Source: Marinobacter sp. BGYM27
GTDB taxonomy: Bacteria > Pseudomonadota > Gammaproteobacteria > Pseudomonadales > Oleiphilaceae
Length of the DNA: 64,000 nt
Assembly (NCBI GenBank): GCA_025153445.1
Contig: JANZNS010000007.1
Coordinates: 62,001 to 126,000 of the forward strand
Direction of reading: 5' to 3'
The position numbers were made by a program, and so were the translations under genes. Shown here piece by piece: positions 11,080 through 33,306 of this stretch. Within the stretch, counting starts at the first letter, position 1; every line of letters begins with the position of its first letter. The notes beneath the pieces are model-generated. The model saw only the letters and a list, made by a program, of their open reading frames with translations. It ran no database searches and was not told the origin of the DNA.

Positions 11080-12075
11080 TCAGCCTGACAGCAGTTCAAT
11101 CGGATAGCGAATGGTCGTCCTGTCGACGCCCGGCCGGGCACCGAAGTTGACCAGCCTCAGGCGGCTGCAGATTTTCTGTTCCAGCGCCGGCTCATTGAGA
11201 GTGGAATCCACCACTGAGCAGTTCGACACCACACCGTTCGATTCGATAACCAGCTCGGGCGTAATCTGGCCCTGCAGCGACGGCTTCTTGCGCAGCGCGC
11301 GGTTATAGATGCTGTAGATCGCCGACTTGTTGGCGTCCATCGTACGACGCAGTTCCTCACGGGAACGCTGGGTTTCCTGACTGCGTGACGTCTGCTTACG
11401 CTCTTCGGCCTCAACTGCCGCCATCACAGATTCAGACTGCTGAACCTCTGCACGCTGGCGAGATGCCAGTGCAACTTGCTCGGTCTTCAGACTCAGCTGG
11501 GCCTCATCGACACCCTGACTGCGAGTGGTCCGGGTTGCCTGGGCCGTCAGCTTGTCGTTGGACTTGCGAGCAATCGGCTGGGCGGTCACGGTTTTAGGCT
11601 TATCCAGCTTGACGGTCTCGGCCATCGCGCTCAGCTGGGACAACTGACTGCTCATCGCCAGTACGCCTGAGGTCTTTGCCTTTTCACGCGCCTTCTGTAC
11701 TTTTTCAGGCGCGGGTTCCGGCTTCTTCGCGACCTGAGGTTTGGGTGTTGGCTTGACCTGCACCGGCTTTGGCTCGGGTTTCGGTTTGGGCTTCTCGGCA
11801 ACTTCCGGCTCGGGCTTCTTCGGTTCCGGCTCCGGCTTCTTCTCCTCTTTCTTTACCACCGGTTTAGGGGGGTCTTTCTTTTCGAGGATCAGTTTGGCCA
11901 GCTGCGGAGGCAGCGCTTCGCGTTCCTCTCTGGCCTGTTCAGGCAAGGTCACCCAGGTCACGTACACTGCCATCACCAGAAACAGCGGCAACAGAACAGA
12001 CGCGATAATCAACAAGCGCCGGCGCTCTCCCGGCTCCTGGTTCCAGGCCAGACCACGGTTCGTCAATGTGCTCAT
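11080..12075 (-). CDS. TonB-like protein with AgmX/PglI C-terminal domain
   Basis: 331-residue envelope-spanning protein. A short cytoplasmic N-terminus is followed by one membrane helix (about residues 21-43), then a long Pro/Lys/Glu-rich rod (about 70-135, repeated KPEPEPKKPEPE type) and a coiled stretch. The C-terminal domain (about 245-331) begins AIYSIYNRALRKKPSLQGQI and matches the AgmX/PglI C-terminal family known from Myxococcus gliding proteins and related to TonB. It contains two cysteines (NCSVVDS and KICSRL) that could form a disulfide. It is the last gene of the minus-strand cluster and overlaps the upstream exbD by 4 bases. It should carry energy from the ExbB/ExbD motor to partners in the outer membrane. 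Confidence 0.85.
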   Translation of the reverse strand: MSTLTNRGLAWNQEPGERRRLLIIASVLLPLFLVMAVYVTWVTLPEQAREEREALPPQLAKLILEKKDPPKPVVKKEEKKPEPEPKKPEPEVAEKPKPKPEPKPVQVKPTPKPQVAKKPEPAPEKVQKAREKAKTSGVLAMSSQLSQLSAMAETVKLDKPKTVTAQPIARKSNDKLTAQATRTTRSQGVDEAQLSLKTEQVALASRQRAEVQQSESVMAAVEAEERKQTSRSQETQRSREELRRTMDANKSAIYSIYNRALRKKPSLQGQITPELVIESNGVVSNCSVVDSTLNEPALEQKICSRLRLVNFGARPGVDRTTIRYPIELLSG

Positions 12076-12575
12076 CCGGCCTCCCTGGTGCCGTCCTGAC
12101 TGACCGCGAGGGATATGGCGGCATAGCCCGCATCAACACAGGTCGACATGATTTTCTTCAGGAGTTCGTAAGGGAGCTCCCGATCCGCAAGAATCGTAAT
12201 CGGGCGACCGGCTTCCGGCACTGACTGGCTTGAGCGACCGGCCTGATAATCCAGCTCGGTTTTCAGCGTCGGCTCCACATCACCGTCAAAAGCCAGCAAG
12301 GCCTGACGCTTGAGTACCGGCCGGCCACTGACCAGGATATCCTCGTCGGTTACCGTCAGCGCCAACACATCCGCAGGCGGCTGATCGGCATTCGACACAG
12401 GCAGCTCGATTCCGCTTTCAGGATTCAACACCTGCACATCGTTGGAGGAGTTCACCATCAGGAAGAAAACCAGAATAGTGAAGATATCCATCAACGACAC
12501 CAGGTTCAGCTTGCTCGTCTGCTTACCACGGCGCTGATGTCGCTTGATGCGCTTTGCTTTGGCTGACTCTTTCAT
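12072..12575 (-). CDS. ExbD/TolR-type motor protein, proton-site Asp present
   Basis: 167 residues: a basic cytoplasmic N-terminus, one membrane helix (about 24-42) and a periplasmic domain. The helix NLVSLMDIFTILVFFLM carries Asp30 at the place of the proton-carrying Asp of ExbD/TolR (compare the family pattern N-x-x-P-L-x-D). The periplasmic part ends in a typical ExbD fold pattern with ITILADRELPYELLKKIM. It works with ExbB (13175-13879) and the second ExbD (12620-13117) as a proton-motive-force motor. Tight spacing to both neighbours shows operon membership. Confidence 0.88.
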   Translation of the reverse strand: MKESAKAKRIKRHQRRGKQTSKLNLVSLMDIFTILVFFLMVNSSNDVQVLNPESGIELPVSNADQPPADVLALTVTDEDILVSGRPVLKRQALLAFDGDVEPTLKTELDYQAGRSSQSVPEAGRPITILADRELPYELLKKIMSTCVDAGYAAISLAVSQDGTREAG

Positions 12576-12619
12576 GCCTTACCCTTGATTCTGATATCAA
12601 TACGCGTTGAAACCGTCAC

Positions 12620-13117
12620 TCAGGATTCACCCACGTTTTGCGGCGCGTCAGCGATCGATATTTCGGGAAACAACTCGGCATCGACAACACTGCCTGCCAC
12701 CACGGTTTCGTAGGAGCGGACGGTGTCCATCGCCGATACCAGGCTCTGATAGGAGGTTTGCTTGCGCGCCATGATGACGATGTCACGCTTGTCCGGAACC
12801 CTCGCCTTGACCTCTTTCATGACCTGACCGAGCATGGCGAAATCGTGGCCCTGCTTGTTATCCGCGATGCGCTTGATCACCCCTGCCTTGCTATCCGACA
12901 CCACCAGCGCATTATCCAGAATGATCACCTGCAACTGCAGCGATTCGGCCTGCTCTGCGGCGCTGCCTTCCGACTGGGGAAAGTTCAGCTCCAGCACGCT
13001 GGTGTGTGCAAAAACCATATTCAGCAACAGCACGGGCACCAGCACGATCATGAGATTCATGAACGCGGTGATATCCAGTTCTGGCTCGGTGTGTAACCGG
13101 CGGTGTTTACGCCTCAT
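12620..13117 (-). CDS. ExbD/TolR-type motor protein, proton-site Asp replaced by Asn
   Basis: 165 residues with one N-terminal membrane helix and a periplasmic domain (IVIMARKQTSYQSLVSAMDTVR is typical ExbD). In the membrane helix the segment ELDITAFMNLMIVLVPVLLL aligns with the ExbD pattern NITPLVDVVLVLL; the proton-carrying Asp position is Asn21 here, while an Asp (Asp15) sits six residues earlier. This copy may therefore be a structural partner and the other ExbD the proton-conducting one. That is inferred from a by-eye alignment. It is encoded between exbB and the second exbD. Confidence 0.87.
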   Translation of the reverse strand: MRRKHRRLHTEPELDITAFMNLMIVLVPVLLLNMVFAHTSVLELNFPQSEGSAAEQAESLQLQVIILDNALVVSDSKAGVIKRIADNKQGHDFAMLGQVMKEVKARVPDKRDIVIMARKQTSYQSLVSAMDTVRSYETVVAGSVVDAELFPEISIADAPQNVGES

Positions 13118-13174
13118 GACCTGGCTCCATAACCTGCGTCAATCTGTTCCTTGCGGCTAACCAGCAACCGGCGA

Positions 13175-13879
13175 TCAGGCCGGCGTGCCGGCTTTGCCTG
13201 CGGCGCCGACGCTGGCCGGAGCTGGCTGAGCTGCGGCTGCAGTCTGGGCAGCGGCCTTGGTGTCACTGACGAGGTTCAGTACCTTGACGCCGGCCATCTC
13301 GAAGCTGTCGACAATTTCATTGGTCTTGGTCTGCAACAACGAATGAATCAGCAGTAGCGGAATGGCTGACATCAGACCAAATGCGGTCGTGTTCATCGCC
13401 ACCGAAATACTCTGGGACAACAGGCTGGCTTTCTCCGCCGGGTCGGCAGAGGCAACCGCAGTAAAGGCTGCGATCAGGCCGATGATGGTGCCCAACAGCC
13501 CCATCAGGGTGGAGATGTTGGCCAGGGTCGCGAGGTACTGGGTGCGTTTCTCGAGCCGGGGCATCACTTCCAGCAGCCCTTCCTCCATGGCGTATTCGAT
13601 TTCCTCACGGGACTGGCGACGGGCCAGGCGCTGCAGGCCACCACCGACCATCTGTGCCATCGCGCTACCGGACTCCGTCGCGTATTTGATAGCGCCACGC
13701 AGTTCACGGTTTATCAGCAACTGGTGCAGTGTCTGAAAGTCTTTGCGGTTGGTCCGTTTCTGGGCCGAGAGGTAGACATAACGTTCAATGGCAACAATCA
13801 GTCCGATCAGCAAGACAACAGCAATCGGATACATGAAAAAGCCACCTTCCTGAAAAAAGCGAATGGCGGTTTCAATCAT
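13175..13879 (-). CDS. MotA/TolQ/ExbB proton-channel protein
   Basis: 234-residue inner-membrane protein with three membrane helices. ATG 13879 (MIETAIRFFQEGGFFMYPI) is preferred over the longer frame to 13915 because the added residues are not typical of the family. The large cytoplasmic loop carries RKDFQTLHQLLINRELRGAIKY; helices 2 and 3 show LATLANISTLMGLLGTIIGLIAAF and VAMNTTAFGLMSAIPLLLIHSLL, the conserved ExbB/TolQ/MotA core with the Thr and Pro channel residues. It heads a four-gene motor block and is preceded by a palindrome of CRP/Vfr type at 14000-14019. A Pro/Ala-rich C-terminal tail is unusual. Confidence 0.92.
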   Translation of the reverse strand: MIETAIRFFQEGGFFMYPIAVVLLIGLIVAIERYVYLSAQKRTNRKDFQTLHQLLINRELRGAIKYATESGSAMAQMVGGGLQRLARRQSREEIEYAMEEGLLEVMPRLEKRTQYLATLANISTLMGLLGTIIGLIAAFTAVASADPAEKASLLSQSISVAMNTTAFGLMSAIPLLLIHSLLQTKTNEIVDSFEMAGVKVLNLVSDTKAAAQTAAAAQPAPASVGAAGKAGTPA

Positions 13880-13999
13880 TGTGGGTTCACTCCCGGTCAT
13901 AAGGTTTGTCGGCATTAGAACAGCAAATGCGCGCTCGCAGGGTAAGTTCGCGCAAGCATTTGTTGCTTATTGTTTTCACAGGATTTTACGCACAACGAA

Positions 14000-14019
14000 A
14001 ACGTGACACAGTTCACGTT
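14000..14019. promoter_or_regulatory. Candidate CRP/Vfr-type operator (possibly a weak terminator)
   Basis: A perfect 7-bp inverted repeat, AACGTGA-N6-TCACGTT, matches the spacing and core (GTGA-N6-TCAC) of CRP/Vfr sites. It lies about 120 bases upstream of the exbB start and just after the stop of the preceding minus-strand gene, in the only sizeable gap (156 bases to the chosen exbB start) of the lower half of the cluster. A Crp/Vfr protein is encoded at 41472-42113. The minus strand reads TCACGTTTTCG, so a weak terminator is an alternative. Confidence 0.5.
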
Positions 14020-14035
14020 ATGCGTCAGTTTCGAG

Positions 14036-14371: not shown

Positions 14372-14374
14372 GGT

Positions 14375-14974
14375 TTACTCCCCGATCCGATTCTTGAGGT
14401 CAAAGATCCAGTCTTTCAGACGTGGGTCCGGCTCATCCGCTATCGTCTGGTAGTGCTGGTAATAGCCCAACGCTTCGGCTAACTCGCCACGATAAAGATC
14501 CAACAGAATGGCCAGATTCAATACCGCCGGGGCGAAGTCAGGATCGGTTTCAAGTGCCTGCCGATAATCGTTTTCGGCGGTGTCGAAATCGCCACGCTCC
14601 CGCGCCAGCATACCCAGCGCGTTGAGACTCTGAAGCTGTGCCGGATCGATCGCGACGGCCTGTTCGAACAGTACTTCCGCGTCATCCGGCTTATCCTGCG
14701 CCATTGCAATCGAGCCCATATTCACCAGCGGCGCGGCCAGTTCCGGATGGGCTTCGTGCAAAGCCAGATAAATCTCCTTTGCGCTGTCCAGGTCGCCCGC
14801 ATTCTGCAATACAACGGCCTCGTGGAAGTGTGCCTGTATTTCAGCCTGCTCTTCGATAAGCGATGCGTTTCCGTCAACTGATCCGGTGTCCGGCGCACTG
14901 ACACAGGCAGCCAGCAGGCTGGCAAAGCCGGCGACCACCAGATAGCGGATCAGCGCCGTTGGTTTAATAGACAT
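14375..14974 (-). CDS. TPR lipoprotein
   Basis: 199 residues; ATG 14974 is chosen because it opens a lipoprotein signal (SLLAAC, lipid-modified Cys24) and slightly overlaps the end of the upstream gene. The mature protein is made of tetratricopeptide repeats: ILHEAHPELAAPLVNMG-like units, with AEVLFEQAVAIDPAQLQSLN and AENDYRQALETDPDFAPAVLN clear. It is probably anchored in the outer membrane facing the periplasm. In the Myxococcus Glt complex a TPR lipoprotein (GltE) plays a scaffold role; equivalence is inferred from context only. Confidence 0.82.
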   Translation of the reverse strand: MSIKPTALIRYLVVAGFASLLAACVSAPDTGSVDGNASLIEEQAEIQAHFHEAVVLQNAGDLDSAKEIYLALHEAHPELAAPLVNMGSIAMAQDKPDDAEVLFEQAVAIDPAQLQSLNALGMLARERGDFDTAENDYRQALETDPDFAPAVLNLAILLDLYRGELAEALGYYQHYQTIADEPDPRLKDWIFDLKNRIGE

Positions 14975-17813
14975 TTTCAACGATCCCCGCATTCAGCTCA
15001 GGTTTGTTGTAACGGCCGGGCAGCAAGCTACGGAGCGATTCAAAGCTATTACGCACCCATTCATCGTAAATGCCATCCCAACTACGCTGCGCATTCTGTT
15101 CATGGATAGCGATGGCGTTGTCTTCAAACGGATAGGCCTGCTCTTCCAACAACAACTCGTACTGGGACAGCTCCAGTTCGCTCAGCCCGTCCGGCCGCTC
15201 TGATTCCATCAGTGCGGTGCCCAGCTGGGCATAGAGATCGGCAATCCGGTAGCCTGCTTCGGTGGAGAACTTCGATACGCCGTAGTCTGCCGTTTTCTGA
15301 TAGGCCGCGACGGCTTCTTCCAGTGCGCTTATCTTGGCACCGAGGGTTTCCTGCAGCGGCTGGGTGATGGTCAGCGCGCTGAAGTAGCGGTAAGCGTCGT
15401 CAGCAAACACGGCCGATGCGGCCGCCGCCTGATAGCGCATGCGATCATCCGCTGAAGCCGGGTTGCGATCGACCGCGTCCATCTGCTTCTGCAACCAGAG
15501 CCGGCGCTGAGTGGGCTCGCCGGTGTCTTCATACAATACAGCCAGCCTGTCGGCGGCATCCATGTAATCCGCCAGTGGCTCGGGATAACGATTGGCATAA
15601 TCACTGTAGGCGCGAATGGCTTTCTGCTGGTTGTCAGCGCGGTCGTATAGTTGCGCGGTGATAAACTGGGTGTCGCGCTTCTCGTCGTCGGTAGTGGCAA
15701 GCCCGACCATACGCTGTGACTCGTCGGCGGCCTGCTCCCACTGCCCGGTTTCACGATAGGCCAACGCCATCTTTGCCGGCAGGGTGTCGATCATTGCATG
15801 CTGCGGATAGGCCGCACGGAAAGCCGCCATTACGCCAACAGCTTTGTCCCACGACTTCATTTCGATCAGATAATTGGCCGCATCGTATTCAGCATTCGCC
15901 CGCAGCGCAGAAGTGGGTGCCACCTCGCCAACCCGCAGCAATTCATCGACAGCCGCCGCTTTGTCACCCGCCGCAAGAAATGCCTCGGCTTGCTTGTAAA
16001 CGGACGCCGCCAGATTCTCCAACACATCAGCGCGTCGAGTATCGTCTTCCGGCAAGCGCAGAAGCGCATCCTGGTAGGCCATCTCGGCAAACGGATAGTC
16101 GCCCATCCGGTAGAGGCTGTGCGCCTTGATCAGTCGGGCATCCAGCAATACGGTTTCGGCCGGAACCGGCTGCCAGTCGATGATCTGTTGGGCATGTGCC
16201 AGCGCATCCAGATACTGCTGCTGCTCGAAATCCTGCTGGGTGGCAATGTAGAGAATATCGATGGCCCGCGGGTCTTCCGGGAAACCGGTGACAAATCGCA
16301 GACGACTTTGCTGTTCGCGCTGCTTCAGCGACGCCAGAATCTCGGGCGAGCTGTCAGCCGAGGCTTTCAGATAATCCTGATACGTCAGGATGCCGGCATA
16401 AGCGGCTTCTGCGCCTTTGGGCTGCGGACCGAAACCATAGGCCACCCGCTCAAATGCCTCAATCGCCTGTGGCCACTGCTGCAACTCAACATGGGTTTCC
16501 GCTAGCAGAAACACCATGTCCGGCGTGTCAGGGTGGCGCGGGAAGGTCGCCACAAATGCCGCATAATAGTCGGCCGCCGCCTGGAACTCCTTTCGGGCCT
16601 CTTCAGGTTTGTTCACTTTTTTGACACGCTGGGCGATCACATAATGCCGGTTGGCCAACTCGGTCAGGAGCGGTTCAAGCTGGGTCAGCAGGTATTGCCG
16701 GTCTTCGGCAGACGCCTGCTGCCAGTAAGTGCCGGTAATGCTGTAATCCCGCACAAAAGCGGCTTTGCGCTCGACGATCGTGCTGGTGAAGCCAGCCTTT
16801 TGCAGGGTGTCGATAATGGCAATGTGATAGCGCGGTGCCCAACGGCTGTCCGGGTGCAGCGCAATATAGCGTTCGTAGACATCGATCGCGTCGGAATACT
16901 GTTCCTTGGCAACCAGCAAGTCGCTGTATCGATCGTAGACGACAATCTCATAGGGCTTGCTGCCGACCTTTTCAAACAGCGCCTGCAGGCTGTCTGCTCC
17001 GCCGGACTGGGTGAAGCCCAACCCCATGACACGGAACAGGTCGTTCAACAGTGTCTGGCTGCGCTGATCAACCGCTGTCGGTGACTGCCCTTCAGGCATG
17101 ACCCGGTCGAGCACACGGGTGTAGCTCACCAGGCTATTGTCGTAATCCCCCAGCTTGAACAGGCACCAGCCGCGCATATACCAGGCATCGGTAACAAAGC
17201 GCTGATCGCTGGCGTCGTCGCTGTTTTGGGCAAGACCAATAACCGACTGGAACGCCTCATCAGCTTCTGCGTAATAGCCCTGAGTGAATAACAACTCACC
17301 CCGACGGAACTGGGTTTCGATGCGGAAATCGGAATCCGGGTAGCCTGCCACCAGCGCATCCAGCGTCGCCATATGGGCCTGGGTGTCGCCATTCAGATCC
17401 TGCGCTTTGGCGAGCTGGTATAGCACCTGATCGTTGGACTTGCGGTCAGGGTACTTTTCCAGCAACTGCTGATAGGCATCAATCGCCACATCAAGATCTG
17501 CCTGCGCAGTCTCGACCATCCGGTCCTCGGCCTGATGGAAGCGCAGGTCCGCCAGCCGGTGCTGTACCTGTACAATCCGCTCGGGATCATCCAGCAACGG
17601 CAGCAGATCCTCGTAATCCTGTATCACCTGATCAAGGCTGACCGGCGTCCTCTGCCCGGTCTCCACAATGGTGGGTGCGGGCTGGAGGCTTCCGAGTGTA
17701 TCGGGTCGGGCTTGCGGTTCACCGGCGCCAAACAACCCCGAAAGGCTCTGACAGCCCGCCAAGGTACCCAGCAACACCGCAACCGCCAGCGGACGCAATC
17801 CAACAGACGTCAT
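14964..17813 (-). CDS. Large TPR lipoprotein
   Basis: 949 residues. The signal peptide ends in a lipobox (GTLAGC, Cys21). The rest is an all-helical array of tetratricopeptide-type repeats over nearly its whole length, for example IDVYERYIALHPDSRWAPRY, AADYYAAFVATFPRHPDTPD and AIRAYSDYANRYPEPLADYM. No catalytic motif was seen. It overlaps both neighbours by a few bases (ATGA with the upstream gene). It is likely a long periplasmic scaffold tethered to a membrane, linking the ExbB/D-TonB-like motor to outer-membrane partners. Such giant TPR proteins occur in Agl-Glt type clusters; the assignment to a named Glt subunit is not attempted. Confidence 0.82.
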   Translation of the reverse strand: MTSVGLRPLAVAVLLGTLAGCQSLSGLFGAGEPQARPDTLGSLQPAPTIVETGQRTPVSLDQVIQDYEDLLPLLDDPERIVQVQHRLADLRFHQAEDRMVETAQADLDVAIDAYQQLLEKYPDRKSNDQVLYQLAKAQDLNGDTQAHMATLDALVAGYPDSDFRIETQFRRGELLFTQGYYAEADEAFQSVIGLAQNSDDASDQRFVTDAWYMRGWCLFKLGDYDNSLVSYTRVLDRVMPEGQSPTAVDQRSQTLLNDLFRVMGLGFTQSGGADSLQALFEKVGSKPYEIVVYDRYSDLLVAKEQYSDAIDVYERYIALHPDSRWAPRYHIAIIDTLQKAGFTSTIVERKAAFVRDYSITGTYWQQASAEDRQYLLTQLEPLLTELANRHYVIAQRVKKVNKPEEARKEFQAAADYYAAFVATFPRHPDTPDMVFLLAETHVELQQWPQAIEAFERVAYGFGPQPKGAEAAYAGILTYQDYLKASADSSPEILASLKQREQQSRLRFVTGFPEDPRAIDILYIATQQDFEQQQYLDALAHAQQIIDWQPVPAETVLLDARLIKAHSLYRMGDYPFAEMAYQDALLRLPEDDTRRADVLENLAASVYKQAEAFLAAGDKAAAVDELLRVGEVAPTSALRANAEYDAANYLIEMKSWDKAVGVMAAFRAAYPQHAMIDTLPAKMALAYRETGQWEQAADESQRMVGLATTDDEKRDTQFITAQLYDRADNQQKAIRAYSDYANRYPEPLADYMDAADRLAVLYEDTGEPTQRRLWLQKQMDAVDRNPASADDRMRYQAAAASAVFADDAYRYFSALTITQPLQETLGAKISALEEAVAAYQKTADYGVSKFSTEAGYRIADLYAQLGTALMESERPDGLSELELSQYELLLEEQAYPFEDNAIAIHEQNAQRSWDGIYDEWVRNSFESLRSLLPGRYNKPELNAGIVENVY

Positions 17814-19882
17814 GGCTGCGCCTCCCCACTGGCAGGCGCTTCAGGCGTCGCTGTGGCGCCTGACTGGAACAGCAGATCTGACAACCGGGCCTGGGCATGA
17901 CGGGCCGCCAGCAGGTAGCGTTTGACCTCCGATTCCTGGCGCGCGATCTCACCACTCACCTGCCCGATCAATGCCTCACGGGCCGCATTCAGGGCGCTGT
18001 CGAGATCGGCATCAAGGCTGGCAATACGCTGCTGGCTCACGCTGACTCGCTCGGCCAATGCTGCGTTGCGATCATTCGAACCCATTTCACGTACCAGCAT
18101 CCGGTTCTTCTCGCGGAACGCTGCCATCGACTGATTCAGCTCACGCAGCTGCTTCTGGGCAGCCCAGCGGTTGACCGCGTACTGATTACTTACTTGCCAT
18201 TCGAAGTAGGCCTTTATCCGGCTGATCTTATCCCGCTGGGCGGCGGTGCTGTCGTCGTTCGGTAATGCGGCGAGCGTGCTCTCAACCTTGCGAATACGCT
18301 CAGCAAATGCCTTCTGTTCGTCAGACATGAAAAATGCCGCGTCACCGGCCTGATCGGCCGCTTCAATCTCGGCGTTGAAGGTCGCCTGCTGTTGGTGCCA
18401 CTCATCAGCACCCAGTGATGCCAGCACCGTTTCTGTCTTGTCGATCTTGACCCGGCGCTGCTCCGCTCTGGTTTCGAGCATGACCTCGAATGACTGGAGC
18501 TGGCGCTGCCAGCGGGTCATCTTGTTGCCCAACTGATACAGCGCGTGCAGATCCCGCAGAGCCAGCTGAAACTTCTCGGAGGACAGCAGTAATGCCAGAT
18601 TGAAGTCGTCTGGCTGCACGTCAAGACGGCCGTATGCATCAGCCGTTATGCCATCTTCGGTGGCAAAGGCCTGCAGGGCCGGGGAAAGAGCACCCACTTC
18701 AGTAGATGAGCCATCTGCATCAAACCGGAGCGCGGCCAGAATACCGGCTTCCGTTAACGACTGACGGGACTGAACCAGTGTGTCGAGCAGGGACTGATAA
18801 TGATTTGCCGCCGCACGATAAGCCTGTAGTGCAGACTTCTGCTGATCCAATTGCTCAAACACGAATCCTCGGGCATAGGGGACTTGCTGCAGCCATGGCG
18901 TAAAGAGCGGCCGCTCCTGCAAGGTATTCAATGCCTGTAATGCCAGCCCCCAGGACTGCGCCTCGGAAGCTGCAACCGAATACCGGTAAAGCGCTTCGTC
19001 AGAGAACGCGCTGGTCAGGCTAATTTCCGCCAGTCGCGCCAGCGCCAGATCGGTATCACCCTGCTGCTGGTAGACCTGCCCCAGGCTCAGCAGTGTTCTT
19101 TCACGCAGAGCCAATTGCTCACGCTTCAGGGCGAGCTCGTCCCGGCTTTCCGGGTCATCTGCGTTTTCCTCAAGGTCAGCGATGGTCTCGCTGTCCACGC
19201 CGGCAAGGTCTTCGCTTAAACGCTCCAGGCCCAGAATACCCGCGTTCTGACCGCCGTCGGCTGTTCCCTGGTCAAGTTCAAAAGCCGCCAGGTTGTAGCG
19301 CAGGTAGGCCTGCCAAAGCGGTGCATCGGAGAGGGATTCAATATCGTTTGTCACTGCCTTGAGAGCCTTCGCCGTGCCTGCACGCAATGCCAGCTGGCCT
19401 TTGAGGTAGTGCCATTCGGCAGTCAGCGGCTCTTCTTCATCTTCCCAGGCTTCGGGGTCGACACGGTTCAGTGCATCAAAGGCGTTGGCGTTATCGCCTT
19501 CCAGATAAAACACCTTCCCCAGATAGAACCAGGCCTGGCTGCGGGTTGACGCCGGAATGTCCTCCGTCAATAACTGCTCAAACAGGCTGCGGGCTTCACG
19601 GCTCATGCCGTAGGCCAGCATCAGGCCGCCTTTGACGAGCAGCGGATGATCGCCGTGTCCCTTGATGCCACCTTCGTGCTCGGCAACCGCCATGCGGGTC
19701 AGCGCGTCGAAGCTCTTCCCCTGATAGTAATCATAGAGAATCGCACCATAGCGCAGGTCCTGCGCGCGCTCCGGCAGATCATCGTCCGCCACAACCGGAC
19801 TGGCCGCCAACAGCGCAGTAGCCAATGCAGCGCCCTGCCACATGGTTTTTTTCAGGAAAGACAATGACACGGGCCTGCTCAT
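17810..19882 (-). CDS. Secreted TPR/coiled-coil protein
   Basis: 690 residues. ATG 19882 overlaps the upstream stop codon (ATGA) and is preferred to GTG 19888. An N-terminal signal peptide (GAALATALLAASPVVADD) is followed by TPR-like repeats (MLAYGMSREARSLFEQLL, QAWFYLGKVFYLEGDNANAFDALN, ALQALNTLQERPLF). The C-terminal third is strongly helical and charged with a probable coiled coil (VSVSQQRIASLDADLDSALN, EIARQESEVKRYLLAARHAQ). No enzyme motif. It should be a periplasmic partner of the large TPR lipoprotein encoded directly downstream. Confidence 0.8.
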   Translation of the reverse strand: MSRPVSLSFLKKTMWQGAALATALLAASPVVADDDLPERAQDLRYGAILYDYYQGKSFDALTRMAVAEHEGGIKGHGDHPLLVKGGLMLAYGMSREARSLFEQLLTEDIPASTRSQAWFYLGKVFYLEGDNANAFDALNRVDPEAWEDEEEPLTAEWHYLKGQLALRAGTAKALKAVTNDIESLSDAPLWQAYLRYNLAAFELDQGTADGGQNAGILGLERLSEDLAGVDSETIADLEENADDPESRDELALKREQLALRERTLLSLGQVYQQQGDTDLALARLAEISLTSAFSDEALYRYSVAASEAQSWGLALQALNTLQERPLFTPWLQQVPYARGFVFEQLDQQKSALQAYRAAANHYQSLLDTLVQSRQSLTEAGILAALRFDADGSSTEVGALSPALQAFATEDGITADAYGRLDVQPDDFNLALLLSSEKFQLALRDLHALYQLGNKMTRWQRQLQSFEVMLETRAEQRRVKIDKTETVLASLGADEWHQQQATFNAEIEAADQAGDAAFFMSDEQKAFAERIRKVESTLAALPNDDSTAAQRDKISRIKAYFEWQVSNQYAVNRWAAQKQLRELNQSMAAFREKNRMLVREMGSNDRNAALAERVSVSQQRIASLDADLDSALNAAREALIGQVSGEIARQESEVKRYLLAARHAQARLSDLLFQSGATATPEAPASGEAQP

Positions 19883-20418
19883 TCCCACTCGACGATATTG
19901 ACGCTGGGTTGGTAGCGGGATGACTCGTCCTGAATCCGGATTTCCAGGGCTGCTACATCAGTGCCCTTGTCCATCATCAGTGTTGCAGCCTGTTTGTAGG
20001 CCCGGTTGTCAGGCCCCATGCCTTCAATAAATGCTGTCACTTCATGAGGCCCGGTTTTGAGGTTGCCGATATACAGCCGCTGCATACCGCCGCGCTGGAG
20101 AGCTTTTGCCTGTCGCTCGGTATAAAGATGCGCCGCCACGATATCGTCATCGACTTTTAGCTTGACGCTATCGAGCTTGAGAAACTCACCGGCATTCAGA
20201 CTCAGGAATACCGTGAACTGGGTGCTGGCGGGAAACAGCAGATCCTCTTCCAGAATAAACAGGTCCCGGTTCAGTTCGATCACCTTTTTCTTCATGCTTT
20301 CAACGCTGTCCGCAACAGATGCACCGGCGCTCTCATCGGCAGCGCTGGCCGTGTTCATGGCGCCCAGCAATACCAGACCGGCCAGCAGAAAAATCATTGA
20401 TTGAATGCGTTTACCCAT
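19879..20418 (-). CDS. Secreted protein of unknown function
   Basis: 179 residues. ATG 20418 has AAGGGA five bases upstream and is preferred to TTG 20439. It has a signal peptide (SMIFLLAGLVLLGAMNTASA-AD), a short coiled coil (VESMKKKVIELNRDLFILEEDLL) and a beta-rich domain (TQFTVFLSLNAGEFLKLDSVKLKVDD, LYIGNLKTGPHEVTAFIEG). Homologs are, as far as I recall, found beside DUF3570 and TPR genes in other gammaproteobacteria and sometimes misnamed AraC family; no DNA-binding motif is seen here and the signal peptide argues against a regulator. Likely periplasmic. Confidence 0.75.
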   Translation of the reverse strand: MGKRIQSMIFLLAGLVLLGAMNTASAADESAGASVADSVESMKKKVIELNRDLFILEEDLLFPASTQFTVFLSLNAGEFLKLDSVKLKVDDDIVAAHLYTERQAKALQRGGMQRLYIGNLKTGPHEVTAFIEGMGPDNRAYKQAATLMMDKGTDVAALEIRIQDESSRYQPSVNIVEWE

Positions 20419-20435
20419 AACCGTCCCTTGAATGC

Positions 20436-21578
20436 TCAATACTCGATAATGATTGATGCCCGGGTGACAAAGGCATCAAATCCATAAAGGGGTTCTTGTC
20501 CCGGCAGGTAGTTCCCGCCGGTGGTGACATCCCGAAAGTTGTCATATTCAAAATTCAGATAATCCAGCAGCAGATTGAACTGCAACCGGTCGATACCGGG
20601 GAGTGATGCCTGACGCAGCTCGTAGGTCACGCCAGTGCCAAACGTGGTACCCGAGAAGGTACTCAGTTCCTTGTCCCGTCCCAGGTGATTTTGCGAGTTC
20701 GCATAGGCGTAGAGATCACTGTAGAAATCAGCCTGATCCTGCATGTAGTAGCGCACCCGTCCTTCGACCGTCCATTGCGCTGTCAGCGGATGCACATAGG
20801 CCATCTCGAAGGTGTGAGCCTGGATGCCCCAGCTATCATCGAAGTAGCGATACTCGCCACGCAACGACGCCCGGTACGGCAGGTAGTACATGGCCCGGGT
20901 GGCCACCGCAAAGCTGGTGCGGGTTTCGGGATACTGCTCCGGCTGATACAGGTATTGGGTGCTGTCGGCCGGATCCAGATAACGGTTCTGGCGATAGGGG
21001 TTCTCCAGAAACCCCTCATCAGTAACGGCTTCCAGATCAATGCCCATTACCGTGTTTTTGGTGATGACCTGTGACAGGCCCAGCTGGTAATTGCGGCGGT
21101 CTGCCTGTTCATCAAAGTTGGTATTGCCCACTTTGCCGACATTATCCCAGCCCTGGGCATAGCCCATTCTCAGGGTCGACAATCCGCCGAAAAATTCCTG
21201 ACTGACCGAGAAGAAGACCGTGTTCGCCTCGTAGTCGTTCTCGCTGCTGTTGGTGTACCCGAGGCTCAGAATGGCGCTGTCATGCAGGTAGTCCACGCCT
21301 GCGGTGTACTCCGTGCGTTCTTCTTCATATTTGCTTGCAGTCGCCAATACATCCACCGAGGCTGCGGATACGGAATCCACATAATACTGCCCCGTGAACG
21401 ACACCTGAGAGCCGGCACTTTTGCGCACCAGCACCGACGGGCCATCAATGACCATGCCGCCGCCATCGTAGCGATGATAGAGCACATCGACATTGTCGAC
21501 CGGCAGAGTCGCCGCCTGAACACCCGACGCCACCAGGCCCGCAAGCAAGATGCAGGCAGCACGGCAGATCGCGGACAT
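20436..21578 (-). CDS. DUF3570 family predicted outer-membrane protein
   Basis: 380 residues. ATG 21578 (MSAICRAACILLAGLVASG) gives a good signal peptide ending GVQA and starts 10 bases after the DUF4266 stop codon. The mature part begins VDNVDVLYHRYDGGGMVIDGPSV, a pattern typical of DUF3570, followed by many amphipathic beta strands (ILSLGYTNSSENDYEANTVF, RASLRGEYRYFDDSW) and a C-terminal aromatic strand (RASIIIEY), so a beta-barrel is likely. Its position in a TlpA - DUF4266 - DUF3570 row is a recurrent association for this family. Function unknown. Confidence 0.85.
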   Translation of the reverse strand: MSAICRAACILLAGLVASGVQAATLPVDNVDVLYHRYDGGGMVIDGPSVLVRKSAGSQVSFTGQYYVDSVSAASVDVLATASKYEEERTEYTAGVDYLHDSAILSLGYTNSSENDYEANTVFFSVSQEFFGGLSTLRMGYAQGWDNVGKVGNTNFDEQADRRNYQLGLSQVITKNTVMGIDLEAVTDEGFLENPYRQNRYLDPADSTQYLYQPEQYPETRTSFAVATRAMYYLPYRASLRGEYRYFDDSWGIQAHTFEMAYVHPLTAQWTVEGRVRYYMQDQADFYSDLYAYANSQNHLGRDKELSTFSGTTFGTGVTYELRQASLPGIDRLQFNLLLDYLNFEYDNFRDVTTGGNYLPGQEPLYGFDAFVTRASIIIEY

Positions 21579-21588
21579 GCGCAGCCCG

Positions 21589-21828
21589 TCAGTTACAGCC
21601 ACAACCACCCCCGGTTCCACCTTCCGCACCACGCGCGCCTTCGCGTGCACCGTAGACGTGATGAATGTAACTGTCGGCATAACCATGGCGGCTAATGCTC
21701 ATCACCGGGTCGGCCAGATTCGCGCGCTCGTAGGGTTTGACCCAGGGCTTGATCGAGCTGCAACCGGTGGCGCTGAATACCAGCGCCACCATTAATCCGG
21801 CCATGACGGCTGCTTTGATCGGTTTCAC
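21589..21828 (-). CDS. DUF4266 small lipoprotein with Cys-rich C-terminus
   Basis: 79 residues. The GTG at 21828 is chosen: it lies 7 bases after the tlpA stop codon and opens a lipoprotein signal ending ATGC (Cys23). The mature protein, about 57 residues, carries the DUF4266 pattern: KPWVKPYERANLADPVMS, then HHVYGAREGARGAEGG and a terminal GGGCGCN. The Gly-rich tail with two cysteines could bind a metal, form a thioether or disulfide, or be a modification site; none is shown. It is found between a thioredoxin and the DUF3570 barrel, so it may be their shared outer-membrane partner. Confidence 0.85.
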   Translation of the reverse strand: MKPIKAAVMAGLMVALVFSATGCSSIKPWVKPYERANLADPVMSISRHGYADSYIHHVYGAREGARGAEGGTGGGCGCN

Positions 21829-21835
21829 AGGCGAC

Positions 21836-22333
21836 TCACTCACGCACCAGCTGTTTGATCTGGGTGACATAATCGTCTTCATAACCCGGCAAATAGCCGT
21901 GGTGCAGGAAACGGGCGTTGCCATCGCGGTCAATCATCACGGTCGTGGGCATCGCCTCAACGTTGTAGCGTTCGCTTACTTTGCTGTCGTTGTCGTACAG
22001 CACCGGATAGCTCACCGGTACCGCCTCGAGGAAACGGTTGGCATCGGTGGAATCTTCATCCACATTCACCGCCAGCACAGCGAAGCCCAAGTCCTTGTAC
22101 TTGCTGTAGATATCATCAATCAGCGGCATTTCCTGACGACAGGGGCCGCACCAGGAAGCCCAGAAATTCAGCATCACGACCTGACCGCGATAGTCTTCCA
22201 GCCGCAGGTTTTCGCCTTGATTACTCTTCAGCGTGAAATCAGGCGCCGGCTCATTCATTTCACCAGCCAGCGCAGACGTTGCTATCAGCAGGCTGAGCGC
22301 CGCCGTAAACATTCGAAGAAAAGCGCGTTGCAT
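21836..22333 (-). CDS. TlpA-family thioredoxin-like protein
   Basis: 165 residues, exported (signal peptide ending SALAG). A thioredoxin fold of the TlpA/ResA type: APDFTLKSNQGENLRLEDYRGQ leads to LNFWASWCGPC with the redox pair Cys62/Cys65, and the cis-proline loop is VEAMPTTVMID. It should reduce disulfides in the periplasm, plausibly keeping CXXCH cysteines of the nearby cytochromes or the DUF4266 cysteines reduced. That partner choice is inferred from position. It has its own ATG with a 77-base gap to the upstream barrel gene. Confidence 0.92.
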   Translation of the reverse strand: MQRAFLRMFTAALSLLIATSALAGEMNEPAPDFTLKSNQGENLRLEDYRGQVVMLNFWASWCGPCRQEMPLIDDIYSKYKDLGFAVLAVNVDEDSTDANRFLEAVPVSYPVLYDNDSKVSERYNVEAMPTTVMIDRDGNARFLHHGYLPGYEDDYVTQIKQLVRE

Positions 22334-22410
22334 ATCTGTTCACTCCTTTTTCCCGGTGTGCCAGACCCGATTTCGGCCCGCTTACCGGCGGTTATGCTTC
22401 TAAACCCGAA

Positions 22411-23058
22411 TCAGAAAAATACCGACAAGCCGGTGCTCAACTCAGTATTGAAGGCGGTTTTGTCTTCACCCAGCACATCGATCTGATACATGTGCTCGCG
22501 GGCGCTGAAGTTCAGCGCGAGGCTATCGGTCAGCAAAATCTGGTAGCCCATACCGACGTTCCAGGTAAAGCGGTTGTCTCCGGCAAAATCGGTCGAACCG
22601 GCACCGGCCACCAGATAGAAATTGGTATTGAAGGCGTAGCTTTCGCCAATAAACGCTTCACCGGGCAACACCCGGTAGCCGAAATTGACGTTGTAGTAGG
22701 TGTACTCACGGTCGTCATCGGAGAGCAACTGCACGTTGCCAGCCAAGGTCTCGAAACTGGTTTCACCCCCCTCGGCAAAACCAATATTGGCCTCCATGAA
22801 GAAGGACTCGCTGAGGTTGTAGCCCAGCCGGCCACCCCAAACGAAAGACGAGCCAAAATCTTCGATATTGAGCACACCGGCGAAAGCACCGAGTTCAAAG
22901 TTTTCGGTATCGATCAATGCTTCGTCGACATGCTGTGGCCGCACGTCAGGTTCGATCAGTGGCTTGTTATCGTCGGCGGCTAACGCCGGCAGCGATAAGA
23001 GTGCCAACAGGCTGCCCCCGCTGAGGGTCAGAAAAATACGCTGAGTCCAACTTTCCAT
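22411..23058 (-). CDS. Small outer-membrane beta-barrel protein
   Basis: 215 residues with a signal peptide (GGSLLALLSLPALA-AD). The mature domain alternates strands such as FELGAFAGVLNIEDFGSSFVWGGRLGYN, SFFMEANIGFAEGG and TYYNVNFGYRVLPGEAF, ending LSTGLSVFF with a terminal Phe as needed for BAM insertion. It resembles the outer membrane beta-barrel domain family shared by Myxococcus and some gammaproteobacteria. It overlaps the upstream barrel gene by 31 bases. Both barrels may be the outer-membrane part of the complex. Confidence 0.82.
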   Translation of the reverse strand: MESWTQRIFLTLSGGSLLALLSLPALAADDNKPLIEPDVRPQHVDEALIDTENFELGAFAGVLNIEDFGSSFVWGGRLGYNLSESFFMEANIGFAEGGETSFETLAGNVQLLSDDDREYTYYNVNFGYRVLPGEAFIGESYAFNTNFYLVAGAGSTDFAGDNRFTWNVGMGYQILLTDSLALNFSAREHMYQIDVLGEDKTAFNTELSTGLSVFF

Positions 23059-23825
23059 TCTGTCGCTTCTTCGTCTGTTTCGCGGTTAGTGAAAATCTTG
23101 TAGTCCTTGAATTCGGCCCGGAGGAAGTAACGATCCGCCAGATAAACCCGCAAGCCCAAGCCGGCATGAGCCGTCCAGTTGGTGCGGTCGCCGGGTTGGG
23201 ACAGGGTCGCCTTCGGCTTGATGTAAATCTGCCCGCCCCCAAGAGTGAAAAACGGTGACACCCGCCAATAAGGGAACGGCTGGTGCACGAGGTTGCCGTT
23301 GATCATCAGTATTTCCGACGCCGAGCCCAGCACCTGGGAACCCGACAGTTCGACCGACAGGTTCTCCGTCATCCCGTAGCCGCCGTAAAGGGATGTCACG
23401 GTGCCGCCTTCGAACTGCCCCATCATCAGCCCGGCCTCCCAGTTGCGGCTGCTGAAGTCATCAAAGCGGGGACGCGAGAGCGCTACCTGCTTGCCCTGAC
23501 CGTCCAGCGTCAGCAACAGATCGTCGATATGCACCCAGCCTTCCCGGCCATGATCATCCTGCACCTTGAACCACTGGGTTTTGCGCATCAGCAACGTCAG
23601 CCACTCCCCCTTTTCGCTGACCCGAATCACCGGATAGGCGGACGCCGGCCCTGTGTGCCACTCAATAAAGGGTTCCGCTACCTGCACCTGTGGCTGCGGC
23701 TCGTCATCCCACCACCAGCCATCTGCTGACGCCGTGCCGGCACCCAGCGCGAGCAACGGCATGAGCAGCCACAGAAAACGGGTACAGCACAGTGTCGATG
23801 TCTTACTCCGCATGGCGTGTCGCAT
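23028..23825 (-). CDS. SH3-domain plus outer-membrane beta-barrel protein
   Basis: 265 residues. ATG 23825 is taken over GTG 23828. After a signal peptide (LLMPLLALGAGTASADG) comes a bacterial SH3-like domain (EPFIEWHTGPASAYPVIRV, WFKVQDDHGREGWVHIDDLL; about residues 48-105), then an eight-strand type barrel ending EWKVGLSVFF. The C-terminal motif is shared with the next gene (LSVFF versus LSTGLSVFF), so the two look like related barrels. The SH3 part could bind peptidoglycan or a periplasmic partner. It begins 42 bases after the heme lipoprotein. Confidence 0.83.
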   Translation of the reverse strand: MRHAMRSKTSTLCCTRFLWLLMPLLALGAGTASADGWWWDDEPQPQVQVAEPFIEWHTGPASAYPVIRVSEKGEWLTLLMRKTQWFKVQDDHGREGWVHIDDLLLTLDGQGKQVALSRPRFDDFSSRNWEAGLMMGQFEGGTVTSLYGGYGMTENLSVELSGSQVLGSASEILMINGNLVHQPFPYWRVSPFFTLGGGQIYIKPKATLSQPGDRTNWTAHAGLGLRVYLADRYFLRAEFKDYKIFTNRETDEEATEWKVGLSVFF

Positions 23826-23870
23826 CACTCTCGCTGTAGGGCATCACCGCCCGCACGTCGGCCGTCGTCA

Positions 23871-26573
23871 TCAATCTTCCGGAGCGTCAAAGGGGTTGTT
23901 GTAATACTGGGCGCCGATATCGAGCCACTCGGCTATCAGTTTCAATTCGATATCCGTGAGGAAGCCCTCATGAGCACCGCCGGTGCGAAACAGGTTCATA
24001 AACCGTCCGCTCGCTCTGGCGCCCCCAGTGCGCATGGACGAAGGCACGTTCACGGTTGTCAGAATCGGAATCGGGTTGTCCATATCGTCCAGTACAAGCT
24101 CGCCGTCTTCATCACGCTCGAATTCACCGGTTTCAACCAGCCTGTCGACCAGGATGCCCCCCTCGACTTCCTGTTCATTGTCGTTAAACAGGAGTTCCCG
24201 GTAGGCCTTGAATTGATCGGGATCGTTATTGGACGGGCCGTCAGTCAGGTCGAGTTGGGCTGCGGGCACCTGCAACACATCAGCAGCGTCTTTTTCGGTA
24301 TGGCAGCCAGTGCAGGTGAAATTATCAATTTCAGTCACGCCATCCACGTCATAGAGCGGGCGGTCCAGACTCCACATTGGGTGGATGTGCTGCTCGTAAT
24401 TGATGACGGTGCGGCAGAACGCGGACCACTCAGCGGCGCAGGCCGCAATAATGGGCTGCGCTGTCATCAGATCCGCATAGGCATAACTGAACGGCTGTGC
24501 TTTGGCTGTCACAGCTGGATTGGTCCATTGGTCTTCAAATACAGCATCCGGCGTCAGCTTGCGCACACCGTTGATACGAGCAAACGTCTCGGCCATGGTT
24601 TCACCCATATTGGCCGTCAACGCAGGTTCCGAATTGGGGAATGGCAACCCACTGGTCGTCGCGCCCGAATAAACCGCCGCCGACCCTGCACCAGGGCGAC
24701 CGTGCGGCACCTTGCTGCCGGCATCATGGCAGCCGTGACAGGTCACAGTTTCACCTGGCCGGACCTGAAGCCAGTTCTGGTGGCGATCGGTAATCCGTTG
24801 GCCTTTCTGATCCAGCACACTGATCGCAAACGCCACATTGGCGGGCACGGCAACACGCACAGAGCCATCCGGCTCGACCGGCACATAACCCAGTATTTCG
24901 CGCATTGACTGGGCCGAACTGCGCCCAAAAGCGGAGTTATCAAAATCCCGCACCTCGTCATCCGGGATCGATACTGCCTTCTCGATCCGCACAAACCACG
25001 CGGGCCGGTTCTGAGGCAACGTTTTCACCGGGTCTGCTGCAGCCCGAATACCACCCGGTGCTGTATCAACACCATCCTCGTCGTACACACTGCGGATATC
25101 GATGACACCCAGCCCTTCCGATGCCAGTGTCTGAGATTCGCCATAGAGCGTGGCATCCGGAATATAGGTAGGCAGAGCGCGAGCTGTCATCAGCACGGCT
25201 TCGTCAATCTGCTGACCTTCCACCGGCCGCTCGATCGGCAACTGGGTATCGCTGTCAGCATCCAGCAGCCACAAGCCGTACACAGGATCAGCCGCGTCAT
25301 ACTCATCAGAGGCCAGACGCGCTTCAGTGCAGTTGGTAATCGTGCCATCATTCAGTCGAGTCAGCCGGCAAGGGCTCCAGCTCGCCAGGTAGCGACGGGT
25401 CCCATCGAACAGGGGCGACGTCATGCCATAGCGACCATTCAGCCCTTGCTCCCCGGCAACCTCAAAACCGGCAACCAGCGGCGTTTGCCCCTGCCCTTCA
25501 ATGCCCTCCAGAGTCGTGCCTGCATCCACATAACGATCAATGTCGATGGCCGTAGGCAACAGGCTCAGATCGTTCGATTCAAACCCGCGCAGTTGGGCCA
25601 GCACGGTGCCGGTGTCTGTTTCGACAGGGTTAAAATACTGAACCGTGATCGCATCGCCGGCGGAATCGTGCGAGTTGCGCCCATAGAGATAAGTCAGACC
25701 GGTGCCGTCTGGGTTTACCTGATACAGGTTAACCCCGTTGTCGCGGGTCTGGCCGGCGTTATCCCAACGACTGAACAGCACCTTCCCATCGGCTCGCACC
25801 GAGGGATCCAGATCATGACTCTGGTTGAAAGTGATCTGGTCGATATCATCCCCATCGCCGGTCATTACATGCAGCACGAATGCAGGCACATCACGCTCTT
25901 CTTCCAGCGCACTGAACTGGGGTTTGCCTTCATCCAGGAGAATCGATTTGGAAGCCCGCTGGCGGGTCGAGGAAAACACGATACGACCGTCCGGAAGGTA
26001 GGCAGGTGCAATATCCTGGCCTGCTTCAGCAATGGTGTCGGAGCTAATCAGGCGGCGCAGCGCCCCCTGGGTAACGTCGTATTCCCAGATATTCCAGGTG
26101 GGCTGATCTTCTTCGTCGGCGTTTTCTATCTCGGGCGCGCGCATGGCAAACACAAGGCGATTGCCGTCGTAAGACACATCCAGGTCCCGGACGTCATAGC
26201 GCAACTGGCCCGCATCATTCAGGAAGGACGCATCAGCAAATGCAGCAGATGTAATATCCCGGGAGACTGCTCCGGGGGAGGCGCTGTTTTTCAGGAACAG
26301 GCGAGCACCGGGGCGAAACATGGCGGGGTCGCGACGGTCATCGCCCATCAACTCACCGTTTTCGTCACCGAACTGCAGCGGGCGCTTGATAAACGCCACT
26401 GCATTTTCAACAACAACGGGGTCGGATTTTTGCTCACTATCGCTACCGCATGCTGTCAGCGATAGCAAAACGCCCAACAGCAGCCCCCCTGAAAAAAAGG
26501 AACGGGCCGGGCGTCGAGAGCGATCAGTGCAACCTGATGCAGGGGGAATCTGGTGTGTTTTACGGTAATGCAA
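23871..26573 (-). CDS. HzsA-like diheme c-type lipoprotein
   Basis: 900 residues. The TTG start at 26573 is supported by TTTGAGG seven bases upstream and by the lipoprotein signal that follows (SLTAC, Cys42). The first two thirds are beta-propeller-like with TolB/hydrazine-synthase-alpha style repeats (LDVSYDGNRLVFAMR, DIAPAYLPDGRIVFSSTRQ, DLDPSVRADGKVLFSRWDN). Two heme-binding motifs follow: CHGCH at residues 612-616 and CTGCH at 754-758. A YSGATTSG stretch (Ser636) lies just after the first heme site. I recognise the family called HzsA-related; it is not itself evidence for anammox, and most members are uncharacterised. It is first in the minus-strand set. Confidence 0.83.
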   Translation of the reverse strand: MHYRKTHQIPPASGCTDRSRRPARSFFSGGLLLGVLLSLTACGSDSEQKSDPVVVENAVAFIKRPLQFGDENGELMGDDRRDPAMFRPGARLFLKNSASPGAVSRDITSAAFADASFLNDAGQLRYDVRDLDVSYDGNRLVFAMRAPEIENADEEDQPTWNIWEYDVTQGALRRLISSDTIAEAGQDIAPAYLPDGRIVFSSTRQRASKSILLDEGKPQFSALEEERDVPAFVLHVMTGDGDDIDQITFNQSHDLDPSVRADGKVLFSRWDNAGQTRDNGVNLYQVNPDGTGLTYLYGRNSHDSAGDAITVQYFNPVETDTGTVLAQLRGFESNDLSLLPTAIDIDRYVDAGTTLEGIEGQGQTPLVAGFEVAGEQGLNGRYGMTSPLFDGTRRYLASWSPCRLTRLNDGTITNCTEARLASDEYDAADPVYGLWLLDADSDTQLPIERPVEGQQIDEAVLMTARALPTYIPDATLYGESQTLASEGLGVIDIRSVYDEDGVDTAPGGIRAAADPVKTLPQNRPAWFVRIEKAVSIPDDEVRDFDNSAFGRSSAQSMREILGYVPVEPDGSVRVAVPANVAFAISVLDQKGQRITDRHQNWLQVRPGETVTCHGCHDAGSKVPHGRPGAGSAAVYSGATTSGLPFPNSEPALTANMGETMAETFARINGVRKLTPDAVFEDQWTNPAVTAKAQPFSYAYADLMTAQPIIAACAAEWSAFCRTVINYEQHIHPMWSLDRPLYDVDGVTEIDNFTCTGCHTEKDAADVLQVPAAQLDLTDGPSNNDPDQFKAYRELLFNDNEQEVEGGILVDRLVETGEFERDEDGELVLDDMDNPIPILTTVNVPSSMRTGGARASGRFMNLFRTGGAHEGFLTDIELKLIAEWLDIGAQYYNNPFDAPED

Positions 26574-28086: not shown

Positions 28087-28089
28087 TCC

Positions 28090-30570: not shown

Positions 30571-30583
30571 GAGTATTTGCCGG

Positions 30584-33127: not shown

Positions 33128-33306
33128 AAACCATCGTCCTGGGAGCAGTGAGTGCGGCAAAGACATTAACGAGTTAACGGCAATGGCTCAACAATATTCA
33201 ACACAGGTTTAATCACCAAAAGGGCCATCGGAGACATAGGCCTTCGTTCATCCAGCGCTGCGCTCAGGTAGCCGTTTCGTTCAGGGGTCTATCAGGAGGG
33301 CACGGA

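Follow-up and report, generated by a model that had tools for sequence, protein, structure and literature searches.

The genome of Marinobacter sp. BGYM27 contains, in the 64,000-nucleotide stretch of DNA analyzed here (the window), a gene cluster in which a motor core related to the Agl-Glt core complex stands together with a set of heme, thiol, and flavin proteins. Across many bacterial families, the motor half and the redox half tend to be co-inherited. The cluster includes a run of 15 genes, all on the minus strand, from 26573 down to 11080 (Table 1). Junctions within the run are mostly overlaps or gaps of less than 80 bases, the exception being 120 bases between ExbB and the gene for a 111-aa protein (u111). 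Since the identical gene order was seen again in many genera and families, the cluster lies far beyond chance. An earlier note, made by a model from the letters of this DNA, had described the 15 co-directional genes; every gene was found on the minus strand, and Pfam or NCBIfam backed the families named there, except that one TPR protein matched TPR models below their cut-offs only. The boundary drawn there was too short. The true unit is larger and takes in genes at 26860-32104 and an ApbE gene at 32126-33166, since these recur with the 15 genes in other genomes. Among the open-access papers searched, we found none joining the motor and redox halves, and a single one mentioning DUF3570 or DUF4266. 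The motor half and the thiol/flavin module are already known; the redox partner set of the core is new. The reading we favor, at about an even chance, is that of one envelope machine in two blocks, in which a proton-driven trans-envelope motor would work on outer-membrane redox proteins.

The tie between the two halves was assessed in a class sample of 229 genomes and in 61 genomes of the window's family. Gene calls were automatic, and search profiles were seeded from the window proteins. The core was followed through the 186-aa protein u186, and the redox half through the HZS_alpha domain of a diheme lipoprotein. GltC-like relatives were detected in 48/229 class genomes, and u186 adjoined the GltC-like gene in 40/40 loci fetched from 37 of these 48. 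u186 was present in 51/229 class genomes and HZS_alpha in 35, with both in 33 (p = 1.8e-24); only two HZS_alpha genomes (G066 and G201) were without u186, and counted by family, 24/26 HZS_alpha families carry it. The earlier note had asked whether the heme gene stays with the motor across genomes. It does where u186 is top-scoring (HZS_alpha in 30/33 genomes), but not where only lower-scoring u186 is held (15/18 without HZS_alpha). Within the family, u186 with E < 1e-60 and HZS_alpha occurred in the identical 29 genomes (p = 4.6e-18), with HZS_alpha in 0/32 others; this split was set post hoc, once a gap between 6.7e-63 and 3.2e-56 had become visible, and three of the 29 HZS_alpha hits (G517, G518, and G520) are below the family cut-off. 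u186 of any score was present in 49/61. Three features, namely F3 (a gene of the 26860-32104 segment), DUF3570 beside u186, and a core with HZS_alpha about 5 kb off, marked the identical 21/61 family genomes (p = 8e-17), which are those with the window's arrangement. The second feature is partly defined by place (DUF3570 of any kind is present in 29/61, a different 29), and G470 was counted among the 21 although its genes are on separate contigs. In a phylum draw of 249 genomes, u186 was found in 9, all within the window's class.

Strong co-inheritance is also observed with the blocks apart. Partner blocks in the same internal order were found away from the core in core-carrying genomes, and among 41 HZS_alpha hits, DUF3570 lay within 8 kb in 30 and u186 within 15 kb in 23. 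Two unrelated operons, merely adjacent, are therefore a very improbable explanation: each half has relatives alone, but co-occurrence holds for unlinked blocks and presence within one family is identical, and chance adjacency was rejected on these grounds. On gene content, the tie between motor half and redox block, even when unlinked, is well documented. Of the 40 fetched loci, 28 contain some redox-set gene in the stretch that was retrieved, and 21 contain two or more of DUF3570, DUF4266, TlpA, and the two barrels; by a stricter count, 19 have at least four of six partner genes upstream, in order, and on the same strand. A scan of named genomes with the u186 alignment kept the best 80 of at least 570 related stretches, those nearest to the window's u186, and leans to Marinobacter; Oleiphilus, Hahella, Aliiglaciecola, Aestuariibacter, Shewanella, Aliikangiella, and many unclassified Gammaproteobacteria were also among the 80. 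u186 was called in 78 of them (L131 and L136, which had no call, were left out of the count), with at least one redox-set gene in 73 and at least four of the six in order in 52.

The motor half has a published counterpart. The genes gltC, gltD, gltE, gltG, aglR, aglQ, and aglS have been described as a "core complex" (Group B) forming one cluster in Gammaproteobacteria and duplicated in two Marinobacter among others, with its function left open in the sections cited here (Luciano et al., 2011; PMC3169522). A later paper calls the core complex a standalone machinery and a possible basal transport system (Wartel et al., 2013; PMC3858216). The same gene types stand in one cluster in the window: one ExbB/TolQ protein (PF01618) together with two ExbD/TolR proteins (PF02472), a transducer with an AgmX/PglI C-terminal domain, and three gltC/gltD/gltE-type TPR genes in an order kept in other genomes. 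The Agl-Glt kinship claimed in the earlier note therefore stands, for a core complex already in print. Its proposed comparison with Glt families came out divided: the AgmX/PglI C-terminus scored over its cut-off (NF033768, 66.7 bits over 40), and of the Myxococcus-type profiles only GltG (NF033760, 45.2 of 650 bits) and GltE (37.2 of 225 bits) matched, both under curated cut-offs. Since these cut-offs were missed and no FHA domain was matched in the GltG-like protein by the family scan, the window motor is, as judged from its sequences, a relative of the core complex and no Myxococcus-type Glt machine. The names GltC, GltD, GltE, GltG, AglR, AglQ, and AglS were assigned by family, size, and order, and those of the two ExbD proteins (AglQ and AglS) by gene order only. 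Further differences from the published core complex are an Asn for Asp in one ExbD and the heme/thiol/flavin set, which goes unmentioned in the cited sections of PMC3169522. The ExbD pair is asymmetric in a near-invariant way: at the channel-Asp position, ExbD 1 has Asn in 83/86 relatives (two have Asp and one a gap) and ExbD 2 has Asp in 86/86. In Myxococcus, a D28N exchange in AglQ was reported to abolish proton conductance (PMC3858216, in part). u186 has 24 invariant residues across 28 sequences; neither a plasmid search nor a PDB search with its profile gave a match. A relative of u111 was called at 30/40 loci.

ExbB, ExbD, and TonB-type parts also raise the question of uptake. In this explanation, the redox proteins would reduce and release a bound metal or nutrient, and the motor would import it via a barrel. 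An iron transporter has been reported in 25 DUF3570 clusters (Meheust et al., 2021; PMC8238504, in the portion used here). However, siderophore-system cut-offs were widely missed (ExbB, 50 of 206.2 bits; TonB_C, 16.8 of 24.6 bits), and no TonB-dependent receptor family was matched in the cluster by family scans. To our knowledge, TonB systems do not include three TPR proteins or two additional barrels. We regard uptake as rather improbable. An ordinary siderophore TonB system, which the earlier note had named as the placement that would speak against it, was rejected, with ExbB/ExbD/TonB scores far under curated cut-offs and no receptor family. Tol-Pal equivalogs were not reached either (TolQ, 62.2 of 221 bits; TolR, 31.7 and 27.1 of 127.3 bits).

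On the redox side, the HzsA-like diheme lipoprotein and two small outer-membrane barrels (SH3omp and OMPm) are the constant partner of the core, and the thiol/flavin set is optional, since eight genomes keep the former without DUF3570 or F3. These eight have only the arrangement we call type III (10 family loci), in which about 10.5 kb separate the HZS_alpha hit from u186 and the two barrels are divergent and flanking beside u186 (10/10 loci). At the two type III loci read through (L200 and L202), the core operon continues past GltG with the HzsA-like gene, and the distance suggests the same place for it at the other eight. In another arrangement, type II, F1-F2-F3 are found immediately upstream of u186, in many cases together with ApbE, and the HzsA gene is oriented away from u186; longer stretches fetched for five of these loci (G128, G131, G137, G154, and G206) have the barrels and DUF3570 past HzsA. 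The HzsA-like protein matches the hydrazine synthase alpha subunit (PDB 5c2v) at 4.1e-10 over 71 residues and has the HZS_alpha middle domain in common with it, but scored 60.5 bits against an HzsA equivalog cut-off of 800. A wider hzs-like family with other substrates has been proposed (PMC10732223, in the part seen). Among 100 HzsA-like relatives, truncated ones included, two CxxCH motifs were counted in 78, three in 10, one in 7, and none in 5. Both barrels match PF13505, and OMPm alone exceeds the TIGR04565 cut-off. A small secreted protein of about 170 aa (F4), absent from the window, is encoded upstream of SH3omp in 8/21 redox loci (L044, L046, L050, L052, L055, L063, L064, and L077); a CX4CH motif in all six sequences viewed makes it perhaps another heme protein.

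The thiol/flavin genes are a detachable, already known module. Clusters of ApbE, DUF3570, thioredoxin, and DUF4266 have been described, and flavinylation of a DUF3570 was shown (Meheust et al., 2021; PMC8238504); the portion of that paper used here mentions no motor and gives its DUF3570 proteins two [ST]GA[ST] sites. All four families are present at the window's locus, with ApbE about 10.5 kb from DUF3570, past the divergent genes; ApbE was the nearest called gene upstream of u186 in 7/40 and 16/78 loci. WCxxC is present in 90/93 proteins called TlpA-like, and the C-terminal CxC of DUF4266 in 84/84 relatives. The flavinylation sites of the window's DUF3570 are altered, with SAAS and ATAS in place of [ST]GA[ST]. 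Among motor-linked DUF3570 proteins the first site is kept in 15/86 and the second in 0/86, with Asp, Ala, and mostly Ser/Thr around the altered first site still conserved; in standalone DUF3570 the first site is kept in 17/20. The 20 standalone loci, drawn from 47 DUF3570 hits distant from HZS_alpha and u186, all had one or more of TlpA, DUF4266, and ApbE close by (the last in 15/20), and the order TlpA-DUF4266-DUF3570 is seen among them. No convincing motor gene was found at these 20 loci, the calls being one weak u186 and one TPR-type GltE. Conceivably, the sole role of the redox genes is to mature or protect the motor or the barrels, as thiol and heme housekeeping without a surface redox function: envelope cysteines could be the targets of TlpA and DUF4266, and cores without redox genes exist. 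This is improbable, however, as no partner is more constant than the diheme HzsA-like protein and the TlpA-DUF4266-DUF3570 unit is found without a convincing motor gene.

The remaining proteins bear on a further alternative, in which the machine would assemble or move a surface polymer and the heme, flavin, and phosphatase-fold proteins would modify or anchor it. F1 has one CxxCH in 80/82 relatives, and F2, with its LamG-like domain, two in 69/80. F3 had a Pfam match in 0/18 members, and a separate PDB search with it gave no match; its model (pTM 0.79) has structures of the alkaline-phosphatase superfamily as top PDB hits (Z 12.1, rmsd 4.8 over 239 residues, 9% identity), with a Foldseek E of only 4.6e-3. 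A putative phosphatase/sulfatase-like fold in F3 and the LamG-like domain would suit polymer work, and the functions published for Agl-class machines involve polymers, as far as the cited texts go. The Agl-Nfs spore-coat machinery of Myxococcus xanthus belongs to the same motor class, with exchangeable cargo, but that cargo is linked to a polysaccharide coat, according to the sections cited (PMC3858216), whereas the partner genes in the window encode redox proteins. The AlphaFold2 model of DUF3570 (pLDDT 88.6, pTM 0.81) consists nearly entirely of strands, and its PDB structure matches are outer-membrane barrels, among them the polysaccharide exporters PelB and AlgE; these fold matches are non-specific, however, with TM-scores mostly below 0.5, and a PDB search with the DUF3570 profile gave no match. 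Furthermore, no glycosyltransferase or capsule-export family was over cut-off in the 19 proteins of the unit; TPR matches to PgaA and Wzy_C_2 stayed below threshold. Polymer work is thus possible but unlikely; it ranks second, behind surface redox work as the most likely and ahead of uptake.

For the two-block redox machine, the following organization is proposed. In block 1, the ExbB/two-ExbD proton channel and the GltG-like, TonB-like transducer would sit in the inner membrane, and the GltC/D/E-like TPR proteins and lipoproteins, u186, and u111 would reach to the outer membrane. Block 2 would be an outer-membrane and periplasmic redox assembly with the HzsA-like lipoprotein and two barrels as its most constant part, to which the window form would add the thioredoxin, the CxC lipoprotein DUF4266, the DUF3570 barrel, F1, F2, F3, and ApbE. 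Most likely, the motor would pass force through the periplasm onto the barrels and so move, open, or hold a surface redox complex, and thiol, flavin, and heme carriers would pass electrons between periplasm and cell surface. We infer the cell locations, direction of force, electron path, and substrate; action of the motor on redox proteins is suggested by the behavior of its class, the related Myxococcus motor having been reported to move surface cargo by proton flow (PMC3858216, in excerpt). The tie to the redox set and the kinship to the Agl-Glt core, on which the earlier note had built its motor with an envelope redox task, are real; that the motor moves or positions surface heme proteins, as the note also suggested, is a hypothesis. 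Tentatively, and with less confidence than the two-block machine itself, mechanical work on an outer-membrane redox complex, on which surface electron transfer or redox catalysis would depend, may be a third function of Agl-Glt motors beside gliding and coat assembly. What the core complex does in non-gliding bacteria has been open since 2011, the core having been described as standalone, and the partner genes offer a concrete, testable cargo, for instance in Marinobacter, Hahella, and Shewanella. If true, the proposal would connect surface redox chemistry with envelope motors of the Mot/Tol/Exb family, and DUF3570, DUF4266, gammaproteobacterial HZS_alpha proteins, and F3, all little-known, would gain a functional context.

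Several observations weigh against the two-block machine. HZS_alpha is missing from 18/51 class genomes with u186; in 15 of these, every u186 is lower-scoring. The remaining three are G017, G048, and G093, with G048 and G093 on contigs of about 12 and 11 kb there. HZS_alpha lies within 15 kb of only 23 of the 66 u186 hits in the class, and DUF3570 within 8 kb of only 24. In a u186 tree of 43 rows, genomes carrying HZS_alpha were not set apart from those lacking it (7 changes, with 71/500 shuffles as low); few branches of this tree are supported, and its label is per genome, not per core. In a six-gene tree of 36 loci, cores without redox genes form no single clade. The heme proteins of the window cluster are few-hemed, short for a long wire, and F3, as modeled, resembles a hydrolase fold and no electron carrier. 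A flavin step is doubtful, given that the DUF3570 flavin motif is altered in most motor-linked members. Other partners of the core count here as well: a trio of VWA, MoxR-type ATPase, and CoxE-like VWA genes precedes 4/4 other lower-scoring family cores viewed (L206-L209), and multiheme or Mtr neighbors of the core, described below, are not conserved.

The same trio lies directly upstream of a second core in the Marinobacter sp. BGYM27 genome itself (G000:C12; L159 10884-15695 and the L159/L160 core). Since this core groups with Marinobacter/Oleiphilus cores in the six-gene tree, it looks like a lineage duplication that changed its partner. Redox proteins are not the sole partner of the motor class, some cores having VWA/MoxR genes. 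The trio is not general: lower-scoring cores among the 40 class loci were without it, and among L039-L158 only L074 had a relative, a VWA protein alone. Multiheme neighbors hint at electron transfer. The partner locus of G056 is adjoined by the gene for a giant multiheme cytochrome (1157 aa, 45 CxxCH; L221, 7362-10835), and a large one, seen in part, also lies beside that of its relative G193, with an AglR-like gene elsewhere in the genome. In G086, which is of a different family from G056, a multiheme cytochrome of 724 aa with 21 CxxCH follows GltG (L220, 2-2176). In G392 (L200, L201, and L219), a type III core stands beside a NapC-type tetraheme gene and mtrC-mtrA-mtrB. The Mtr extracellular electron-transfer conduit consists of surface heme proteins and an outer-membrane barrel, a combination to which the window cluster bears a likeness, but the MtrA/B/C families were unmatched among the 19 window proteins. 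A general link to mtrCAB was rejected, these genes being at 1/10 type III loci and absent from the nine others.

Table 1. Genes of the extended unit in the window, with coordinates and family matches.
Gene product	Position	Strand	Match or recurrence
HzsA-like diheme lipoprotein: PD40 propeller, HZS_alpha middle domain, 2 CxxCH	23871..26573	-	PF18582 2.4e-17; PF07676 2.1e-6
SH3omp, outer-membrane barrel with N-terminal bacterial SH3 domain	23028..23828	-	PF13505 2.7e-8; PF08239 3.3e-6
OMPm, small outer-membrane barrel	22411..23058	-	TIGR04565 151 bits (cut-off 60); PF13505 1e-10
TlpA/ResA-like thioredoxin, WCxxC	21836..22333	-	PF00578 3.4e-31
DUF4266 lipoprotein, C-terminal CxC	21589..21828	-	PF14086 5.9e-21
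DUF3570 outer-membrane beta barrel	20436..21578	-	PF12094 1.7e-42
u186, secreted core marker, 186 aa, no family	19879..20439	-	No Pfam family over cut-off
GltC-like TPR protein	17810..19888	-	TPR models matched below cut-offs only
GltD-like TPR lipoprotein, 949 aa	14964..17813	-	TPR_6 3.4e-26
GltE-like TPR lipoprotein	14375..14992	-	TPR_2 4e-17; NF033758 GltE 1.6e-9, below cut-off
u111, small secreted protein, 111 aa	14036..14371	-	No family matched
AglR-like ExbB/TolQ channel protein	13175..13915	-	PF01618 3.7e-29
ExbD/TolR protein 1, labeled AglQ by order; Asn at usual channel Asp	12620..13117	-	PF02472 4.4e-14
ExbD/TolR protein 2, labeled AglS by order; Asp kept	12072..12575	-	PF02472 2.4e-16
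GltG-like TonB-type transducer, AgmX/PglI C-terminus	11080..12075	-	NF033768 66.7 bits (cut-off 40)
F1, secreted monoheme protein, one CxxCH	26860..28086	+	Relatives at 12/40 loci
F2, diheme lipoprotein with LamG-like domain	28090..30570	+	PF13385 9.3e-19; relatives at 9/40 loci
F3, secreted protein of Tat type (twin-arginine start, by eye), putative alkaline-phosphatase-superfamily-like fold	30584..32104	+	Relatives at 8/40 loci
ApbE, FAD:protein FMN transferase	32126..33166	-	PF02424 5.3e-82; relatives at 14/40 loci

The start of the DUF3570 gene is better placed at 21578, since the longer frame overlaps DUF4266. Promoter footprinting of the F1/HzsA intergenic region gave no nameable motif. 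Adjoining the end of the motor operon, on the opposite strand, is a gene for a PLP-dependent enzyme of the beta-eliminating lyase/threonine-aldolase type (9910-10944). A gene of the NADPH-dependent FMN reductase family lies a few kb past ApbE (36258-36929), and a 1261-aa protein with DUF1631, GGDEF, and EAL domains is encoded at 46909-50694.

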